64,000 nt of DNA from the NCBI GenBank assembly GCA_001931905.2, contig MSJI02000919.1, positions 1 through 64,000 of the forward strand, in the 5' to 3' direction. Below are positions 33,012-59,637 of the stretch, one piece after another; the stretch's first letter is position 1, and the number at the start of each line of letters is the position of its first letter. The notes beneath the pieces are model-generated. The model ran no database searches. It was not told the origin of the DNA and saw only the letters and a list, made by a program, of their open reading frames with translations. Made by a program: the position numbers and the translations under genes. The DNA is from Cladosporium sp. IMV 00045. Taxonomy: Eukaryota; Ascomycota; Dothideomycetes; Cladosporiales; Cladosporiaceae.

Positions 33012-36000
33012 CTACCTCGTCCTAACGCTGAAGCTTTGACTCTCGCCGGTATCCCTCCTGATGTTTTCCGGTCGGTTGTATTGGCCGGCGACGTGCCCTG
33101 AGAGTGCACTCAAGTTCGCGCCATCCCCATCACGGTTTGTCATGCTCTGCGCACGAGAAGATGCTGGGCTCTTCTGTCCGGCATGCAAGCTAAACTGTGA
33201 TGCAGACGGCGGGTACTCGCGCGAAGAAGTCAGCGGGCCGGTGAGAGAAGCGTTCGAAGGCCTCCTGTCAATTGAAGCGGCGCTGCTGTGTACATTGTGG
33301 TTTGGGTAGTTGTTGAAATAATTCGCGCTGTTGGGAGCATTTGCTCCACTTCCAGCTCCTCGACGCTGTGTATCAGCGTCGTACGCGTTCAATTGGCGAC
33401 GTTCGTTTTGGCCAGTCGTGCGGGCGGTCGGAGGCTCCCAGTCTTTACCACCAATGCTTGTGGCAACAGGCGGCGCAGTACGGAACCGACGGTTCGCGCT
33501 GATGCTTTCGCGGCTTCCTTCTTCATCAATCAACACGACCATCCAGACGCCAACCGCGCCCGTATGGCCGATCAATGGTGTGCAGTGGATCCAACGAGGG
33601 CGACCCTCACCCTCACCATCCTCATCCGGGCGTGCCAGCCAACGGATCTTAGCGGTCACACCGCGACCTTCTTCCAAAGCGGCAGAGAGGTCGGCACGAA
33701 CACGTGGAGAGCCACCAATGCGGTGAAGGAAAGGTGATTGCAAGATACCAGGCACTCGAAGAGACGGCGAGGTGAACAAGATGCGCATAGAGGGTGCAGG
33801 GCGAATAAGGAGGTACTGCCACAGTGTTAGCTTGCCGATCAAAATGCATGGTTTGCAAGAGTACAGCCTGCAAAGAAATCTGGTGAGAACTCACGTTTTG
33901 ATAGACGCCTGCGAGCTTGCCGTTGACGCGGTCCTTGTCGACGGGAGGAACTCCTGGCGCAATTCTCTCCGTCTGCTTGTCGAGAATTTCCTGGCTTGGG
34001 TCGGACAGCATAAGTCGAGGGCGGCCACGATCAGCGCCACCCTTGATGCTTTCCGCATCTTCATTGTCGACGTACTCCCTATGCATGCTTCCTCCACGAC
34101 GGCGGACAGTGTCAAGCTCGACTCCGTTAAACATCTCAGACAGCTCCTGGAACTCGTCCTTCTTCTTCGATTTCTTCTTCTGAGCGTTGTCAACAGATTG
34201 CTCGATCTCTTCCTCCACCAGCTTCGCAAGACCCGGTAGCTCGCTGCAGGTCTTGAGCAAGCCACTGACGTCGACCTGTGCGCCAATGAAGTAGCGAACA
34301 GTTCCCTTGCTGTCCATGAGAGGTGCTATCATCAACAAGTTGAGGAAAGGACTTCCATCTCGTCGGTAGTTGACAAAGACCTCGCTTTGTTCTACACCAC
34401 TCTTGCATGCCTCAGCGAGCCTGCGAGGGGAGTTCGGGTCTGTTCGGGGTCCTTGAAGGAAACGGCAGTTGCGGCCGATTGAGTATGACATGCCGTATTG
34501 CGTAGTCCGCGAGAACTCCTCAGAGGCGAAAACAATAGGGTTGTCAGGGCGCGAAGGATCGGTCAGACAGAATACTTCCGCAAGGCCTTCGCTGGCCTCC
34601 CTCAGATGAGGTGCCAGTGTACCTGTGATGCGCCTGGAAATGCTGGTCGAAACAACCTGGATATATGTAAAGGTGATGTACGCAGGCAGATCCTCCCTGA
34701 CAAGAATTTCGAACGCCTTGTTCGCCTTTTCTTCGAGAGATGCATTATTCGTCTGCTGTACAGCCTCTTTGGTAAAGTCGCAGGTTGTGATAGGCTCAAG
34801 TGCCTCCGCGACGGCATTAGCATACTTGATGGCACGGAGAGCCTTGAGTGCGTCCAGATAGTAAATCAACACAGGAATACTTTGCGGCCGGTGAGAATTA
34901 AGAAATCCAGTGAATTTCTGCAGGAGTTTGGAGTTGTTGAAGATCTCTTTGAGATGCTCCTTCGACAGCAACAGATCGGCCTGCTTCTCGAGTGCGTACA
35001 TGCCGACATTTCCCGCCTCTTGCGGTGGCTCAACTAAGTCAAATGATCGTGGGTCATCCTCAATGAGAGGCTCGAGTGCATGCGCATCGTTCGGGTCGAG
35101 ACCCTTATTCTGCAAAGGCGGAAGAGTATGGACAGAGGTAGCAGTGGTGTCCAACGAGTCTCGAGAGTCCCTGCTGCTACCATCGCCGACGCCATAGTGA
35201 CGATCGGTCATCGCGTCTGGGCTGGAGGGTTCAGATTCTGGGATAGTGGAAGAGGTTGACTTGCGTGGAGCTTCGGGCATGCGATGGAGGATCTCGTTGA
35301 TACTGCTGTCGGCGTTGCTGGGTTTAGCAGTGTTGCTTTGTCCGGAGCTGCTGTCCTGATGTTAGCGATGTCCTTTGACATGGCATTGGCTTTCCACCAT
35401 TGTCGCCAGTGACGCTTCTTCAAGAATTCAAAGCGTCGCATGGGTCCAGAGCGGTTGATTGTAGCTCCACATCTGGATCATGCCGAAGAGAAGAACAGCA
35501 GTGATGGTGACAAGACATACCTAGTCCTTGGTGGAATGCGTAAAGTCTTAGGAACGTCACCTCCGGCCTTGGGTGACGAGGGCTGAGACAAGTTCGAGTA
35601 CGACGGTTTCGCGTAAATGCTGGTAGGAGACAATGGACGGGATGACAAGGGCTGAGAAGACTGTCGTCTATCCTGAAAGTCCTGTGCGACCGGCCTTGTG
35701 GGGTGATCCGAAGATGCGTGAATGTCGTCAAGGTTCGAAACACCGTAAGCAATGTCGGCCTGGTCCGGGCGACGCTGCTGCTGTTGCTGTTGGTGGAAGA
35801 TGTGATCCTGAATACGGGACGTAGGACGAGTTATGGTAGAGTCAGAGGCCTGCCGTATATCACGGCGGCCGCTGGCAGTCTGGTGAGGATACTGTGCAAA
35901 GAATTGCGTCAGTTATAAGGGAACCTTCGAGCTCCGGACAACGGCTACTACGTAAACCCAGGCATTTTATGGTACGAGCGTGGGCCACGCGAGCGCGGAG

Positions 36001-51395: not shown

Positions 51396-51843
51396 GGCTG
51401 GTTGTGTATGTTGGGTGTCGGTGTGGAAGTTCGAGTTGTATGTTGCAGATGAGTATCGTCGGTTGGAGGTGAGATGTTGACGTCTGCTCTGCTCTGCTTT
51501 GGTGTGGGTGATCGCTTCCAGGTAAGGACTGTATCAAGTCGCGTCTGCTTGAGTGGGTCTTGACGGAGAGTGTACCTCGTCACAGTGGTTATCCGCCTTG
51601 TTTTGTCGTTAATGTCTGTTTTCAAATTGGTGTTGGTTGATGTTTTCCACTAAACCCGCACCGTCATCAATCAATGATGCGCGTCTTATCGCCGCCGCAG
51701 CAGCCCGCCAGATCAAGCTCAAGCACCTCCACACGAGCCTCGGCTCGCCCGCAACCGTCAAGTGTGAGAACGTCAAACAAAATTCCACCATGTGCTGACA
51801 GCACGACTCGACATCTATTCCCTTGCTTGAGCGCAACCACACC
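51396..51843. promoter_or_regulatory. Bidirectional promoter region, DDB1 / RPC37
   Basis: The 448 bp between divergent start codons contain both leaders. An open frame from 51674 runs into the RPC37 exon 1 region but is Ser/Pro-rich and probably 5' leader. Confidence 0.45.
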
Positions 51844-52996
51844 ATGGCACGTAAGTCGCTTCACACATACCCTGATCGACCTCATGCCCACCATGAGACC
51901 TCATCGCTCACCAACTAACACTCCCACAGCCTCACGAGCGGTCGACGACGACCCAGTAACCGCCGAATACGACGTCTACCTCACCGCCGCGCAACAAGAG
52001 CAAATCTACCTGCTGCACTACCTGAACCGCACACGAGAGCGACCATACAGCCAGCGCTTCGGTGCGCAGCCCGTGGACGTGCGAATCAAGCCCAACTCCG
52101 GCCACTTGGAATTGGACGTCGAGCTCAGCACAAACTACAATTTCAACAAATACCAAGGCCTCAAATGGGGCGACGCAGTGCAAGCGTCGAAAACGATCCA
52201 GAACGACTCAGGAACCTACGGCCCGGCCTCAGGCTTCGGCGTCCCCCGTGGCAAACCGGGCGGCCGCAACCAACTCAAAGACAAAGCGGACATTGAAAAC
52301 CAAGTCGCCAACGACCTGGCCGCCTTCCGCGACGCCGTGGACGAAGACAAAGTGATGCACAAGCAAACCCTCGGCGGGCAGATCTTCCGCCACGACAACC
52401 AAGGCGAAGACATCTCCCAGCCCGTCTACTTCCTCGGCGCCTTCGCCGGAAACCAACTGCACCTCAGCAAAGTGGACGGCACGGTGCAAATGCGGCCTCA
52501 ATTCCACCACATCGACGCCGAAGCGCACCGCAATCGCCTCGCCACATCGCGCGCCACGGCAGAAGCGGACGGCGCAGCCGCGAAACCCGCGCCCGTCGCG
52601 CGCGGGCTGCAGCAGAGCTACAAGGAGATGTCGGACGACAAGGACAAAGACGCGCCGGAGCGGCTGATGCGCAAAGCGCTGGCGGACGCGGAGGAGGAGA
52701 GCTGGGTGCCGCTGGAGTATGTGGACGAGGCGGAGGAGGCGGCCTTCGAGCTTTTCCACGAGAGGATGTTTTTGCACGACGCGGAGCAGGCGCCGCAGTT
52801 GAATAGTGGCATGGATGACGATGCGTTCTTGGATGCCGTCAGTATGCCGAGGGAGGGCAGCCCGCATAGGAGGAGGAAGAGGCCGCCGAGGAAGAGGGAT
52901 GTTGAGCAGGGGGATGTGGGTGCTGAGACGGCGGCGGCGGGGCAGGAAGAGGCTGTCGCGCAGAACGAGGGAGCGCAGGATCGTCTACCCTCCTGA
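51844..52996 (+). CDS. RPC37: RNA polymerase III subunit RPC37/RPC5
   Basis: Exon 1 is only seven coding bases (51844-51850, ATGGCAC). A 79-nt intron with GTAAGT, a CTAAC branch site and CACAG leads to exon 2 (51930-52996), giving 357 residues starting MAPSRAVDDDP. Matches to the Sin-like/RPC5 family are DDPVTAEYDVYLT, QIYLLHYLNR, AQPVDVRIKPNSGHLELDV, YNFNKYQGLKWGDA, and later QPVYFLGAFAGNQLHLSKVD with QMRPQFHHIDAE. RPC37 pairs with RPC53 in a TFIIF-like subcomplex used in initiation, termination and reinitiation by RNA polymerase III. The C-terminus is basic and then acidic (RRRKRPPRKRD). Upstream in-frame ATGs exist without splicing, but the spliced start matches the family's usual short N-terminus. 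Confidence 0.88.
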
Positions 52997-53527
52997 AGGC
53001 GAGCCAATGGAGGCGTCAATCAATCCTGAGTTGTTACGAAAGATCTAATGCGAGAACATTTCCCCACAGCAGCGAATCCATTGCGGCCTCTGATAATCTT
53101 TGGACAAGCTCGCAGTTGTTCACTTGCACTTCACCTCGAGCGGCGATCTCTCACCCGTGAGAGACTTTCCTTCACTTTGGCGAAAAAGCACGAAGGAGAA
53201 AAAGGAGCTTTCCTTGCAATTTCATAATCTCTCACTGGCTACCCTACTCACGCCCGCCACAAGGAAGGAAAAAAAAAGAAAAAAACCAAATAATAAATTC
53301 AAAACCCCGCTTTCGATCGACTTCAAAAGGAAAATCCTCGATCCTTGAAAAACAGCGCGTCTCGCATCATTTCAGGCCGTGAAAGACTCATTGGCAACGT
53401 CATCTCAAGGACAGTCTCAAAGGCACAGAGAGGCACAACACCACCAACCAGCAAATAGCCCTGGTACCCCCTCCTCCGATTCACCAAATCTCTCATTCAG
53501 AGTCTGGATCCGACTTTGGCTTCCTGG
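52997..53527. other. Convergent intergenic region
   Basis: This is 3' flanking DNA of RPC37 and of the repeat-bearing gene on the right. An A-rich run lies at about 53265-53295. No gene is seen. Confidence 0.4.
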
Positions 53528-54418
53528 TCAAAAAAGCCTTGATCTTGCTGGCCTGCCGTGGGAGTCATTCGGGATGAATCGACCCGGAGCCGCGAGTGTC
53601 ACGCTGCTCCGGTCCCGAGTTACCGAAAGACTGCGAGGAGTTTTCCCCTTCGCTTTGTTGGCTGTGAAAGTCTGGTCCCTTACTGGGCCCGGTCCCTCTG
53701 AGTTGCCGAATTTCTGCGAAGCGCTATCGCCCTCGGCTTCATTGTCCGAGAACGTCTGTTTGGGCATCGCGGATTGTTGACCTGGTAGAGTTCGGGGCGT
53801 CACGACGGGATGTACGGTCTCGGGCAGAGCGACGGCTGAGCTCGGATTTCTCACAGCGACCTCCTTGCCAGTGTCGTCGGTCTGTTTGGTTCAGCATACA
53901 ATCACTACGCGCATCACAGGAGAACAGCTTACAGATGTACGCTCAATCCCGAACAAGATCCTCTCTATAACGGTAGGCGCTTGCGTCCGCGCCGGAAAGC
54001 CGGCCTCTCTGTTGGGTCCTTCCGCACTCATGTAGAGATTAAGCGTCTGGCAATCCAGCTGAAGCGAAGCGAAGCTCGAATCTACCTCTTTCTCGCGGAT
54101 GACAAAACCCAGCGCAGCGCGAAGCCTGCGAGTCGCAGAGTCGGTGGGCTTTTGGGATCTGGTCCGGATGATGTCGTGGAGGGCTTGGATCCTGTCTTGC
54201 ACGGCTGAAAGGTAGCGGGCGAGGTCACTGCTATGCAGGTGTTCGCTCACGCCGATTTTTCGAACGGTCAGGCTCAAGATTTCCAGCTGTTGGCTTCTGT
54301 CTCGCAGCAGTGAAGGCCCGTTCTTGACGGCGGCGCGGATGTCGAGGATCGTCGAGACGATGTTGCAGGCGTACGCGAGTATTTGAACCCCGCTCGCGGC
54401 GGCGCCGAGTGCTTCCAT
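53528..54418 (-). CDS. Helical N-terminal domain protein with amyloid-like repeat motif (putative cell-fate effector)
   Basis: Exon 1 is 54418-53933 and exon 2 is 53881-53528, with a 51-nt intron (GTAAGC...CAG), giving 279 residues as read. Residues 1-135 form a helical domain (MEALGAAASGVQILAYACNI onward) like the SesA/HeLo-like N-terminal domains of fungal NLR and cognate effector proteins. The C-terminal half is polar. At 206-223 it carries FSDNEAEGDSASQKFGNS, spaced like HET-s-related amyloid motifs. A second DNA copy of the repeat follows at 53668-53616 but is one base shorter, so its protein frame is lost and the tail to residue 279 is probably not native; an alternative frame stops at 53565. 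Either the gene is frameshifted or a further intron exists. The divergent neighbour has the same motif. The effector role is inference. Confidence 0.65.
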
Positions 54419-54819
54419 TGCTATGAAGATATGAAGGTACTTTGTAGATGGGATGAGGGTCTGCTGTTCTTTTTCGCCCCTCGCACTTCACCGGTCGGGC
54501 AGGGCGGTTTGTGCGACTTGAGACGGACTTTTCATTGGACCCTGCTATATTACATACCGCGGTGGCGCAGCTCAAGGCATCTCGAAGGTGGTCAGCCTGG
54601 CACACATGATACCGGATGATCGTTATCATGAATGGCCGCCTCGTCGATCATCCCGTGCCTTGGCAAGGCGGCATGCTTCTCTGAAGACTGGGTGCATAAA
54701 TCAACCATACCTGGACCATACGCCGCTCGACCCGTACGACAGCCTTTCTTCGTTTTGAACTGTTATAGTTCAGTCATGCATGTTCCTCGCGATCTTCACG
54801 AACGACGAGCGACGTGGAC
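54419..54819. promoter_or_regulatory. Divergent promoter region of the motif-sharing pair
   Basis: The two start codons are 401 bp apart and face away from each other, so the pair can share control. No specific site is identified. Confidence 0.4.
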
Positions 54820-55615
54820 ATGTCGCAGCAACATTTGCAACTAAACGACTTGAGCCAGCAGGGTTTCGAAAGCAACAGTGTCGGCGGTCAACACGCCAGG
54901 CAGCACTTGGGCAATTCCAACTATTCGAGCTCTCACAACGTGATCAACAATTATTACTCCGCCAGTCCACACGGGTCAAACAGAATCCCACAACGCGAGG
55001 ATGCCGAGGAGGACCAGGGTCCCGGACCAGTTTTGGATCGCCAGCACATCGGAGGAAGACACCCCAGCTCCCTCAGGAGCTTCGTCCATTCACGAAGTTT
55101 TCGACGATGGGCGATACCAATCATGATCGTCCTAGTGATCCTTGTCGCAGCTCTCCCGCCTTCGCTGATCCTGACGAACCGAGCGACTGGGTCGTCGGAA
55201 AACGAGTAAGCGTAACCGACTTAAGAGCAGGCGAAGCACAAGCTAAACGATATATAGGGCGGAAGGCTCGTCGACAGACACCACCCGTGATTCCACAACC
55301 GCCGAAGCCTCGCCATCAAGCACACCAACGAACGCGCCCAAAACATCTTCCTCAGGCACAGACACAGCCAGTGATCCATCAAACGCCACGCCAGGAAACA
55401 CTCTCTCTTCCAGCCAGTCCACGATCACAGACTTGACCACAGTCTCCCTCCCAAGCGATGATCCGCGCGCCTCAACGTTTTCCACTTTCGTCTGTCAATG
55501 GGGATGCCCCGGGCGACCTTGCGTCTCCGACCAAGACTGCGGCGAGCAACCGCTGGGCACGACGACGGTCCAGATCTGGTGTGTACAGGCGAACAAGACT
55601 TGCGCTACGCCCTGA
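54820..55615 (+). CDS. Single-pass membrane protein with amyloid-like motif and Cys-rich ectodomain (putative sensor)
   Basis: Exon 1 is 54820-55205 and exon 2 is 55258-55615, with a 52-nt intron (GTAAGC...ATAG), giving 247 residues. Residues 16-33 read FESNSVGGQHARQHLGNS, matching the neighbour's motif at F, N, G, A, Q, G, N and S in identical spacing. The Asn/Tyr-rich stretch after it (NVINNYYSASP) also suits amyloid sequence. A basic patch (SRSFRRW) precedes one membrane helix (about 97-118, WAIPIMIVLVILVAALPPSL). By the positive-inside rule the motif is cytosolic. Residues 130-205 are Ser/Thr-rich, like a glycosylated stalk. The last 40 hold six cysteines (VCQWGCPGRPCVSDQDCG, then WCVQANKTC). 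There is no signal peptide, so the helix is a signal anchor. I know no named family with this layout; wall or damage sensing is a guess. Confidence 0.72.
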
Positions 55616-55834
55616 TGACACCGGAGCGTATTGAACTTGCAAGAGGTGGAGTTTTGAGGCAGTGTATGTATTGTAGAAGAGTATAGCTGAAAGCATGGTG
55701 GGATCCGACGTCCCATATTCGGACAAGCAAGTTTGTCCCTACATGTCAACACGACACCATGCAGAGCCATATGACCGCTACCCGCATTGTTCAAAGATTC
55801 CCTCTAAAGACAAGAAGGGACCGCAATCTACTTC

Positions 55835-57256
55835 TCACCTCCCCTTCTTCCACTCCAACACCCTATTTCCAGCCTCCACCAGATAAAAATCCCCATAACT
55901 CAGTCCGGTGTCGAAATTCTTCGGCTCCGCTTGCGGATTATTGTTACTCGTCGCATGCATCAGAACTCCCTCAAACCCCCTCGACTCGCTCGTGTTGGCA
56001 GGCGTGTCGAGGCCCGTCTCCGCGCCCAGCGCAGGACTGTCCGCGAAACTGATCTCGCCGGCGAGCGAGAGCGAGATGCTCGAGGAGAGGAGGGAGAGGG
56101 CGGAGGCGCGGTAGTTGCGCTGTTTGCCCTTTTGCCTCAGCTTCTTGCTCTGGCGGTGGGCGGAGCGGTCTGGTTTGCTAGAAGCGGATTTCTCAAGCTG
56201 CTCTTGCAGCAAGATCATCCCGCTGGCGGCAATGCTCGCCGCACTGCTATCGCGCGGCGTGACGCCGGGCAGCTCCTCAGCGTCGAAGTCCCAGAACGGC
56301 AGCCCGTCTTCGGGGAGGTGGTCGATGAACCAATCCGCCATGCGGCGGGCGGTGCGCAGGTAGGCTTCGTCGCCGGTGAGAGAGTAGAATTCTGCGAAAC
56401 CGTAAAACCCCCACGCCTGGCCGCGGGCCCAGGTGCTGTTGTCCGCGAGGCCTTGGGCGGTGCGGCAGGTGTAGACGGCGCCGGAGGTGGCGCTGTAGTC
56501 GCAGACGTGGAAGGAGGAGCCGTCGGGGCGGATGTGGTGGGTCATTGTTTTGTCGGCGTGCGAGACGGCGATGGACAGGAGGGTGGTGTTGTGCGTGTAG
56601 GTTGAGGCGCTGCGGGCGAGGAGGGCGAGGTTCATCATGTTGTCGATTATTACTAGGACGGAGTCGGGGTGGGAGCAGCGGGAGAAGGGGGAGGTGGAGT
56701 TTTCGGCGCAGTCCCAGGATCTGATGATGCCGGCGCCGGGTTCGAAGCGGGCGGCGAGGTTGAGGGACATGTTGTGTAGGACTGGCAGGTAGGTGTCTTC
56801 GTTGAGGATTTGCATGGCGCTTTCGAAGGGTTTGGCTAGGAAGCCGAGATCGTGGGTGTTGGTGAGGTTGATGTTGGTCTGCAGAGGGTCTGTCCATGCT
56901 TTTGCCATTGCCAGCCATTCTTCTGGTGAGGGCTCGTGGGGGTAGTCATCTCGGGGTGCTAGATCGATCCTTCTACGGTATGCCTGCCACAATGAGTCCG
57001 GGTAGAATCCAGACGTCCATCCTGATGCGTCTGTTTTGACGTACGCTCCTGGAAGGACGCCATCCTCTTGAGGCGTGTTGTTGTATGCTCCTTGAGTGAA
57101 GTGTGGCCATCCATGCTCGTCTCCCAAGGTCGGAGGTCCGGTCAATGCAATCCGCCACAGACGTGCATATACGTTCTCGGCGAACATTGCGCCGAGTTCA
57201 TCGGGTGCCGCCCAAGAGACTCCGGTACAGTAAAGCAGGAGAAGGTTGGTTCTCAT
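55835..57256 (-). CDS. GH88 family glycoside hydrolase (unsaturated glucuronyl hydrolase-like), secreted
   Basis: This intronless gene encodes 473 residues. The signal peptide (MRTNLLLLYCTGVSWAA) predicts secretion. The six-hairpin barrel of GH88 is visible: SGWTSGFYPDSLWQAYR, THDLGFLAKPFESAM, IRSWDCAENS, HPDSVLVIIDNMMNLALLARSA (with the Asp and Asn around the active site), GSSFHVCDYSATSGAVYTCRTAQG, STWARGQAWGFYGFAEFY and WDFDAEELPGVTPRDSSAASIAASGM. Such enzymes hydrate and cleave unsaturated uronic acids from fragments made by polysaccharide lyases. A lysine/arginine-rich stretch (KKLRQKGKQRNYRASA) interrupts the C-terminal part where the family is usually continuous. The end NFDTGLSYGDFYLVEAGNRV is conserved. 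Confidence 0.9.
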   Translation of the reverse strand: MRTNLLLLYCTGVSWAAPDELGAMFAENVYARLWRIALTGPPTLGDEHGWPHFTQGAYNNTPQEDGVLPGAYVKTDASGWTSGFYPDSLWQAYRRRIDLAPRDDYPHEPSPEEWLAMAKAWTDPLQTNINLTNTHDLGFLAKPFESAMQILNEDTYLPVLHNMSLNLAARFEPGAGIIRSWDCAENSTSPFSRCSHPDSVLVIIDNMMNLALLARSASTYTHNTTLLSIAVSHADKTMTHHIRPDGSSFHVCDYSATSGAVYTCRTAQGLADNSTWARGQAWGFYGFAEFYSLTGDEAYLRTARRMADWFIDHLPEDGLPFWDFDAEELPGVTPRDSSAASIAASGMILLQEQLEKSASSKPDRSAHRQSKKLRQKGKQRNYRASALSLLSSSISLSLAGEISFADSPALGAETGLDTPANTSESRGFEGVLMHATSNNNPQAEPKNFDTGLSYGDFYLVEAGNRVLEWKKGR

Positions 57257-59637
57257 GGCTGCAATTGCGTTGGTTGATAGAATGAGATGTCTCTCGAAAC
57301 ACCGTGACTGCCATTGCAGGCATACGACCTCATCGATCTAATATAAAGACAGCGAAAACAATCATCGAGAGATCTGCAATTCGAGCGCAACCTTCTCCGC
57401 ACTTTGATTCAAGAGAAGGCATGTTTATTGATGGGATATTTCTGAACCACAGCATGCTTCTTGGATATTCGGGTGAACTGAGTCCGCAGGTCAGCACTTA
57501 GGCCTTTTGATAACTTCCATTCCCATTTCATAAGTCCAGGCGAGAAGGTAACAGGCAGTACGGGTTGTGAGGCTTTGAATTGAAGGCAAGAAGTTGACTC
57601 GCCTGGAAGAATTCAGCGGCAGCTCCGAACAACTTAGACCTCGATGACATGCCAGACCAGGACTCTCATCTCGACTTGCTAATGCCTGTTCCTGAGCAAT
57701 AAAGCAATACTCCGCATCGTTCTCGTGTTCCGCGGACATGCGAGCGTCGGTGGCTGGTCTCTCTCGGCGTAGACTTGGCCATTGAGCACAGCGTCTCGCT
57801 GACAGCAGCAGACGAGAATGCCATGCAGCTTGAGAGTCCACCCAAGACGCATGATTATTCATACCAGATGAACGCAAGCGGATACCGCAGCAAGCATGTT
57901 CCTGGCGATCATGCTAGAAGTGACCAGGAACCAGTAAGCAGTACGACGTTCACCTACATGTACTTCCTACCTTCTGGAAGCACACGCGACCCGGCAAACG
58001 GCTTCAGTTGACTTTTTGAGGCTTTCGGCACGTCATACTTTGGAGGTATGACGATGGATTCGTATACTGTTGTTAAATATATACACACGTACCGAGCATG
58101 TATAATCTATTGAAGTTCCATCACTCAAATACATTACCTAGGTAAGCATTGTAGGAGAAACAGAACCCCCTCCCTGCCGTACCACCACCCAAGGGCTCGC
58201 TTAGGCCATCTCCGCGACACCGAACAACACCCGATCGTGAGTCTGCAGACGCCCCAAAAATCCACCTTCCACATCCAGGTCCACGGAAGAGGAGAGGGCA
58301 TCACATGCACACATGCGGTAAAGCTACTTCCCCCCGACATCCGCGCGTGAGTTTGCTGTGGAATCTTGCGCAAAAGACCACATTCCATTTTCGGCGGTCA
58401 GGCATCGTGACATGCTTTCTTTTTTTGCTCTTACTCGCTCGCTCTCGCTCCGCCAAGTGCCGCCGTCCCTCCGTCCACCGCCGCTGGGGGCTGTTTCTGC
58501 AGGCGCCGTGTGACCTTCGGGAAATCGTACGAGGTCTCTCGGGCGTTTGTCTTGACCGCGTGCATGTAGAGATGTGCTGGCTGCTTATAAAGAAGTGGCA
58601 TGTGGCTCATGGGTAGGTGGAGGTTTTGATGCTTTTCTTTCTCGTTCTGTTTGTCGCTCCATACCAAGGACACTTTGCTTCATCCTCAATAACATCGACA
58701 TCACCTCGCCAAAAACAAAGCCATTTCTTGTGAAATCAAATACGACACGCATCGCCGCATACGAATGTCCGCCAGTGACAGCATTGTTCTCGGATCACAC
58801 TGCCGTTGCCAACTACTATCGTCGGAACAATGCTGCCCCTAATCCCCGTCGTGGTCCTGGCCTACGCCGCTCTCTACCTCTTCACCTGAGATCAGCCATC
58901 ACTTCTATACTCTGGAACATGACCACGAAGTAAACTACGAAACATGACGTAGCACCACCGCTACCACCACCACTACCGCCATAGCAAGGCCATTCCCGGT
59001 GCCAGATCCCACGCGACACATCCCACGCGACACATCCCATCCACGCCACTCCCGCACAGCCCTCGACAGGACATTATCAGCCGCTGCCACCATTGCTTCA
59101 CCATGAGCACTGCGAGTAAGATTCTCGATGTGTAGGCACATCCAGGATGTCCCTAGTGGGCGGACCGAAATCTGCACGCCGGGCCGGGGAAGGTGGTATG
59201 CTGCTCTGCCATCTCGCCGCCGGCAGATCTGTCTTGCAGGCCTTGAAGGTGCTTGGCGCCACTACCATGGAGGATCGAAGGTCATTCGCACCGCGCACGC
59301 TGTTTGGCGTGATGATGAAGTTGAGCTACGGGGCTCAAGATGTGAAGAAGGAAATCGGGCGTGAGAAGTGGCGCTCTACGGAGCAAGCTCAGGCATGTTC
59401 GAGCTACGTTTCCGTGATCAAGAGCTCGTAACGTGCATGCATGCATGAGATGGGTGACGAGAGCGGCTTGATATCTTTGGCTGCAAGAAGACGAGGAAGA
59501 AAGGGAGAGTTGCTCGAGGAGTCGTGTTGATTGTTCGTGGCTATTTATGTTTCATTCATATGCTACGAACAATGCATTTTTGCTTTCTCACCCTCACACG
59601 TTTCATCGTGCTGCGAGAGCGAGGTCAAGCGCTGCGT
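57257..59637. other. Gene-poor stretch
   Basis: No gene is supported over 2.4 kb. Short frames on both strands near 57775, 58305 and 59147 show no domain. The left end contains the promoter of the GH88 gene. Confidence 0.4.

Follow-up and report, generated by a model that had tools for sequence, protein, structure and literature searches.

In known fungal amyloid death signaling, the receptors are NOD-like receptors (NLRs) that sense inside the cell. Fungal amyloid motifs have been described on NLRs and on effectors (PMC9815663, PMC7889193, PMC12881547, PMC12261475, PMC10197012; here and below, published work is cited from the excerpts available). Effectors with HET-s-related amyloid motifs (HRAMs) carry two imperfect C-terminal repeats of about 21 residues, separated by a loop of 6-18 residues that is often Gly-rich, and their NLR partners carry a single N-terminal motif copy that is poorer in D, E, and K (PMC4518210). 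Within the HRAM pattern, Gly 19 is conserved and positions 5, 8, 10, 16, and 18 are hydrophobic (PMC4518210). An adjacent NLR was reported for 98 of 155 HRAM effectors, which leaves 57 by subtraction without one reported (PMC4518210). Here we analyze a divergent gene pair at positions 53528-55615 of a 64,000-nucleotide stretch from Cladosporium sp. IMV 00045 (contig MSJI02000919.1, positions 1 to 64,000; hereafter the window). One gene codes for a remotely SesA-like candidate effector and the other for a predicted single-pass membrane protein, and the two share an amyloid-like motif.

Insects provide a second point of comparison. PGRP-LC spans the membrane in the type II, N-in orientation. An amyloid motif lies in its intracytosolic part (PMC9496462). 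An earlier note on this DNA had stated that no system of the present kind is described, which is too wide a claim because PGRP-LC carries a cytosolic amyloid motif. Restricted to fungi the statement held, in that no fungal membrane receptor carrying an amyloid motif was found described in the available excerpts of the open-licence literature.

The reading that we favor, with moderate confidence, is that the pair forms an HRAM-type two-gene amyloid unit in which a type II single-pass surface receptor replaces the NLR and seeds a pore-forming SesA-like effector. The sequence supports this reading through the sharing of the motif, its two-plus-one copies, the gene arrangement, the topology signals, remote SesA homology, and the retention of the motif in three more relatives.

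The two genes share an amyloid-like motif

The genome that we analyzed comprises 49.9 Mb in 954 contigs, and the window lies on a 190-kb contig (C915). Gene modeling bore out the adjacent divergent pair reported by the earlier note, with both motifs at the positions it gave. The two spliced genes between 53528 and 55615 have start codons 401 bases apart. The SesA-like gene begins with an ATG at 54418 on the minus strand and reads as 279 amino acids to 53528, and the membrane protein gene runs from an ATG at 54820 on the plus strand to a stop at 55615 (247 amino acids). The features of the pair are as follows, with the motif copies named r0 (receptor) and r1 and r2 (effector).

53933..54418, minus strand: SesA-like effector gene, exon 1 (162 amino acids; predicted helical N-terminal domain, hydrophobic helix first)
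53882..53932, minus strand: SesA-like gene intron, GT-AG, 51 bases
53528..53881, minus strand: SesA-like effector gene, exon 2 as read; motif-bearing tail
53699..53758, minus strand: effector motif copy 1 (r1), QTFSDNEAEGDSASQKFGNS
53675..53698, minus strand: loop EGPGPVRD between the effector copies, 8 residues
53616..53674, minus strand: effector motif copy 2 (r2); start in frame with copy 1, remainder shifted (open reading frame 53565-53723)
54419..54819, no strand: region between the divergent start codons, 401 bases
54820..55205, plus strand: membrane protein gene, exon 1; predicted cytosolic N-terminus with motif, Arg-rich flank, transmembrane helix
54859..54918, plus strand: receptor motif copy (r0), QGFESNSVGGQHARQHLGNS
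55111..55173, plus strand: single predicted transmembrane helix, residues 98-118 (Kyte-Doolittle hydropathy, charge counts)
55206..55257, plus strand: membrane protein gene intron, GT-AG, 52 bases
55258..55483, plus strand: Ser/Thr-rich stalk, predicted extracellular, about 46% S/T
55484..55615, plus strand: six-cysteine ectodomain tip, which differs between the window and the relative P0001

A motif of about 20 residues is common to both genes: the membrane protein has it at residues 14-33 (r0), and the SesA-like protein has it in its tail (r1). The alignment of F, N, G, A, Q, G, N, and S that the earlier note described is real, and an additional upstream Q also aligns, giving nine invariant columns. 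The ungapped r0/r1 alignment has a BLOSUM62 score of 45, a value reached by 1 of 200 shuffles. The number of identities is weak evidence when taken by itself: with the tail shuffled against the N-terminus, 8 of 18 identities were reached in 53 of 3000 trials. Judged by these alignments and by the genome-wide counts below, the sharing of the motif by the two genes is real.

We measured how specific the motif is to this locus. The core A-x-Q-x-[LF]-G-N has 77 matches in the genome, and the pattern written in reverse has 24. Among the 76 of 77 core matches that were read, the four further residues of the motif, namely F, N, G, and S, occur together only in the two window genes, 1.2 kb apart; this count is a measure of specificity and not a blind p-value, because the core was defined from this pair. 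The reading covered 74 of the 75 other matches, 14 with wide and 60 with narrow context, and left out C373:23614, a 21-base match with the same sequence as C373:12263. Within these 74, a pair of the four further residues was present in 2 matches, a single one in 15, and none in 57. A stop falls inside the 20-residue stretch in 19 of the 76 matches read. Any one place in the genome is expected to have 0.004 further core matches in the 1.2 kb flanking it on each side.

The nearest other core match, L074 on contig C141, carries F and G and has an upstream score of 14, compared with 65 and 62 for the window genes. It reads AGFVVKFAEGDVARQVLGNL within a 52-residue open reading frame near 34167 on the plus strand (G000:C141:33400-35000), with two of the four further residues. 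This stretch is more hydrophobic than the motif of the gene pair and is situated about 12 kb from a NACHT match.

Searches of PDB sequences with the effector tail, the receptor N-terminus, a motif profile (A5), and a SesA-like profile (A3) returned no meaningful relative. Low E-values in one PDB search came from eight weak stretches of a repetitive protein (Tako8) and were rejected. We also set aside the PUASM class, whose published pattern FxGxGxQxxGxGxF (PMC9815663) misfits the motif by eye, and the sigma class, the sigma motif itself being left uncompared.

The effector tail carries a second motif copy

The account in the earlier note lacked a second effector copy. Following r1 and the loop EGPGPVRD, the tail contains QTF..N.A again in frame, and then EGENSSQSFGNSG in another frame. 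Local alignment of the DNA of the two effector copies scored 26, compared with a maximum of 15 in 1000 shuffles. By this comparison the tail is a two-copy tail, with copy 2 split between two frames in this assembly. An intron was considered as the cause of the frame change and rejected, as the change falls inside a 20-residue copy. Because copy 2 spans two frames, the effector gene as it stands here may be inactive, or the assembly may be in error.

The effector N-terminal domain is remotely SesA-like

We compared the N-terminal domain of the effector with SesA domains of the same genome by profile-profile alignment (hhalign). The query profile combined the window protein with its relatives P0003 and P0004, and the target was built from seven SesA domains taken from 8 loci of the 17 genomic SesA matches; L003 was omitted because it contains a stop. 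This comparison gave a probability of 87.7 over 110 of 130 columns, compared with 5.5 for three HeLo-like domains. P0004 on its own scored 21.1 bits to SesA, under the Pfam cut-off of 26.3. We conclude from the profile match that the effector N-domain is remotely SesA-like.

HeLo-class proteins are described as depending for their activity on a helix at the N-terminus that has transmembrane propensity (PMC10197012). In the window protein, P0003, and P0004, no sliding segment starting after residue 26 is as hydrophobic as the first helix, so the hydrophobic first helix of the effector matches what is expected for the HeLo class. An AlphaFold model of the N-domain has low confidence (mean predicted local distance difference test [pLDDT] 55.3), insufficient for a fold to be read, and is all helical, with helices at residues 2-33, 35-57, 64-88, and 95-132. 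A Pfam search with both proteins and the shifted-frame open reading frame gave no match above cut-off.

The membrane protein has the predicted layout of a type II receptor

Topology was read from simple hydropathy and charge counts rather than from a dedicated topology program. The best 19-residue Kyte-Doolittle mean is 2.65, and the next best outside the transmembrane helix is 0.39. In the 20 residues on each side of the helix, charges are +5/-0 before it and +1/-4 after it. There are two potential N-glycosylation sites on the C side, at residues 171 and 241, and one on the N side, at residue 34. The stalk is 46% S/T, and six cysteines lie at the C-terminal tip. The features of a type II receptor, namely one transmembrane helix, positive charge on the N side, and a glycosylatable, Cys-bearing C side, were thus all found. 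We predict an N-in/C-out orientation because of the single helix, the charge bias, the S/T stalk, the glycosylation sites, and the cysteines. The same hydropathy and charge counts agree with the proposal of the earlier note that the motif lies on the cytosolic side of a single-pass protein.

No paralogue of the membrane protein was found in the genome, where two further matches had E-values of 3.15 and 4.86, and a search of the genome with its first 60 residues matched only the protein itself. Pfam gave no match above cut-off (best DUF1180, E 0.17). The AlphaFold model of exon 2 has a mean pLDDT of 52.7, too low for the fold to be read.

The receptor motif is kept in relatives and the tip differs in one of them

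Homologue searches gave 1, 3, and 3 proteins, and a single source supplied all of them. P0005, P0006, and P0007 are relatives of exon 1 of the membrane protein, and all three keep the receptor motif. Across these relatives, the motif varies at 2 of 20 positions, both outside the set that receptor and effector have in common, and the juxtamembrane stretch varies at 9 of 37. In P0001, exon 1 is translated in the wrong frame, and the sequence is compatible with all 20 motif residues; only one wrong-frame residue differs there, and the minimal substitution that explains it would lie at the third position of a true-frame codon.

P0001 and the window differ at 1 of 77 codons between nucleotides 54780 and 55010 and at 14 of 53 between 55011 and 55169. 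The differences start abruptly near nucleotide 55011 (55011-55127), after about 230 bases with one differing codon, and this change may mark a recombination edge between alleles. When exon 2 was compared in its true frame, 13 of 43 tip residues differed, compared with 5 of 75 in the stalk (Fisher p 0.001). P0002 is 99% identical to the effector N-domain, and its cluster lists 8 member sequences. Recognition polymorphism is a possible explanation for divergence of the tip alongside a difference of about 1% in the effector N-domain. Diversifying selection at the tip is only suggested, because the comparison is of one sequence pair without a ratio of nonsynonymous to synonymous substitutions (dN/dS).

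P0001 and P0002 share the same contig data (2 contigs, longest 5780). These matching data make it probable that the two genes also share a contig in a close relative, where the tip is altered. The earlier note had made its reading depend on retention of the motif and the pair in related genomes. The receptor motif was retained in three relatives, adjacency is inferred from the matching contig data only, and the effector motif was seen in no other genome in a search whose queries took in pieces of the tail. Elsewhere in the Cladosporium genome, a short degenerate effector relative lies at C662:25847-26029 (L018), with two stops inside and a run of N in the same stretch.

A proposed mechanism for the gene pair

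In the mechanism that we propose, the Cys-rich tip, held on its Ser/Thr stalk, would encounter a ligand or non-self variant on the outside of the cell. The receptors would then cluster, and their cytosolic r0 motifs would stack into a short cross-beta seed. This seed would template the paired r1 and r2 motifs in the tail of the neighboring SesA-like protein. The helical N-domain of the effector could then insert its hydrophobic first helix into the membrane and kill or wall off the cell. The motif pair, its layout, and the predicted topology speak in part for the membrane-sensor/effector amyloid reading of the earlier note, and the steps of the mechanism are inferred from sequence.

We suggest more tentatively that a surface receptor with a rapidly changing Cys-rich tip seeds a pore-former directly, without an NLR. 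This arrangement, which we consider plausible but somewhat less likely than not, would be a one-step switch from outside to death, possibly at an allorecognition or microbe-recognition locus. Receptors of this kind might also activate some of the 57 (of 155) HRAM effectors that have no adjacent NLR reported. If this is true, single-pass proteins with an N-terminal motif are expected beside NLR-less HRAM effectors.

Several results weigh against the proposed amyloid unit. The tail of the effector is frame-broken in this assembly and has no counterpart seen in other genomes: when two pieces of it were among the queries, the 3 proteins returned were all relatives of the receptor, and short exons may escape the length limit of that search. 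A frame-agnostic search of the P0003 and P0004 tails revealed no clear motif (best score 55, compared with 107 for the true motif in P0001). The N-domain scores 14.0 bits against the Pfam SesA family (PF17107), whose cut-off is 26.3, and the gene is not among the 17 SesA matches of the genome at E 0.001. No match to SesA was seen for P0003, and a Foldseek search with the low-confidence model returned nothing at E 0.001 or below. The HRAM hydrophobic pattern is only partly present: F stands at position 5 only if a one-residue gap is allowed, L/F stands at 18, position 16 is Q, and, by our own reading, positions 8 and 10 are not both hydrophobic. Neither protein matched PF11558 at E 10, and the genome as a whole gave two weak matches to it, the best with 16.2 bits compared with a cut-off of 32.2. 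A match to PF11558 is no precondition for HRAM proteins, since only 38 of 155 published two-repeat proteins have one (PMC4518210). Finally, 8 of 18 identities were reached in 165 of 1000 whole-protein shuffles, so that the identity count alone is within chance.

Alternative explanations

The membrane protein might instead be an anchor or a brake, with a motif that holds the SesA-like protein, or fibrils of it, at the membrane and so restrains or confines its activity. The motif sharing and the topology are equally consistent with such a role, and fly Pirk shows that motif-bearing partners can inhibit (PMC9496462). A six-Cys tip with concentrated changes (13/43 compared with 5/75 in the stalk) exceeds the needs of an anchor, however, and the charge pattern on the receptor side suits a seeding copy. 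We regard this explanation as unlikely.

The true partner of the effector could also be an NLR elsewhere in the genome, with the membrane protein having taken up the motif secondarily. We found at least 70 NACHT matches at E 0.001 in the genome, and NLRs are the known partners of HRAM effectors, being adjacent to 98 of 155 (PMC4518210). None of the 70 NACHT matches lies on C915, however, in keeping with the view of the earlier note that the locus has no NLR, and the extended motif is present in none of the 74 other core matches read, a count that diverged or intron-split motifs and NB-ARC receptors would escape. The membrane protein itself has no match to a NACHT or NB-ARC domain, NACHT having been searched genome-wide and NB-ARC not. 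A distant NLR partner seems to us distinctly unlikely.

Pairs of the classical arrangement do exist in this genome. Two closely similar divergent NACHT/HeLo-like pairs lie on C627 (47668-49285) and C882 (38939-40554; loci L054 and L055). Like the window genes, they are divergent neighbors, with about 0.8 kb between the domain matches. They differ from the window pair in that the partner is a NACHT protein and the HeLo-like tails, by eye, lack the window motif. These HeLo-like proteins end in a Gly/hydrophobic tail that, by eye, may be another amyloid-type motif. Contigs C322 and C385 (L052 and L053) each carry one of two nearly identical proteins that begin with a HeLo-like segment (PF17111) and continue into a long C-terminal region, and on C385 a NACHT match is found at a distance of about 2.3 kb.

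Chance likeness between two low-complexity, Gly/Asn/Ser/Gln-rich segments in unrelated neighbors would account for the whole-protein shuffles described above. It would leave out the second effector copy, the genome-wide specificity, and the receptor motif kept in three further relatives, results that already disfavor chance and make it very unlikely. Least probable of all is a decaying unit, a former amyloid pair in which the frame change removed effector copy 2 and the membrane gene took another role: the frame change inside copy 2 and the degenerate C662 relative with its two stops fit decay, but the effector N-domain is 99% identical in P0002 (a cluster of 8 member sequences), the receptor motif is conserved, and an assembly error beside base runs is possible.

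Open reading frames flanking the pair within 51500-58500 include one of 451 residues at 51641-52996 on the plus strand and one of 500 residues at 55835-57337 on the minus strand. The latter may be a secreted glycoside hydrolase of the unsaturated-glucuronyl type.

Comparison with known amyloid signaling systems

The window pair resembles the HRAM pairs of filamentous fungi (HET-S/NWD2 and others; HRAM1-5, for example HELLF/FNT1, HRAM5) in several respects. The candidate effector is predicted to be helical and of the HeLo/SesA class. It has two motif copies joined by an 8-residue loop, within the published range of 6-18, and copy 2 of the window effector is split between frames. The genes are adjacent, and the product of the neighbor carries one motif copy at its N-terminus. 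The receptor copy is low in charge, with one D, E, or K in r0 compared with five in r1. Gly 19 is aligned in r0 and r1 and also in the shifted-frame part of r2. When a one-residue gap is allowed, Gln stands at motif positions 3 and 16, as described for HRAM2 and HRAM5, respectively (PMC4518210). The effector/receptor motif layout put forward in the earlier note is therefore supported, and it is strengthened by the two effector copies, the low-charge receptor copy, the loop size, and the three relatives. Unlike HET-S/NWD2 and the other HRAM pairs, the predicted receptor at this locus is a single-pass membrane protein and not an NLR, whose place it would take.

The insect PGRP-LC/Imd system, with its cRHIM motifs, is alike in pairing a sensor that has an intracytosolic amyloid motif and an extracellular sensing domain with an adaptor that has the same motif class (PMC9496462, PMC9531809). 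It differs in its motif family, which has no shown sequence relation to the window motif, and in its output, which is NF-kappaB signaling for PGRP-LC compared with a predicted pore-former here. If our reading is correct, the window pair would represent a direct surface-to-pore pathway in fungi that parallels PGRP-LC/Imd in insects.
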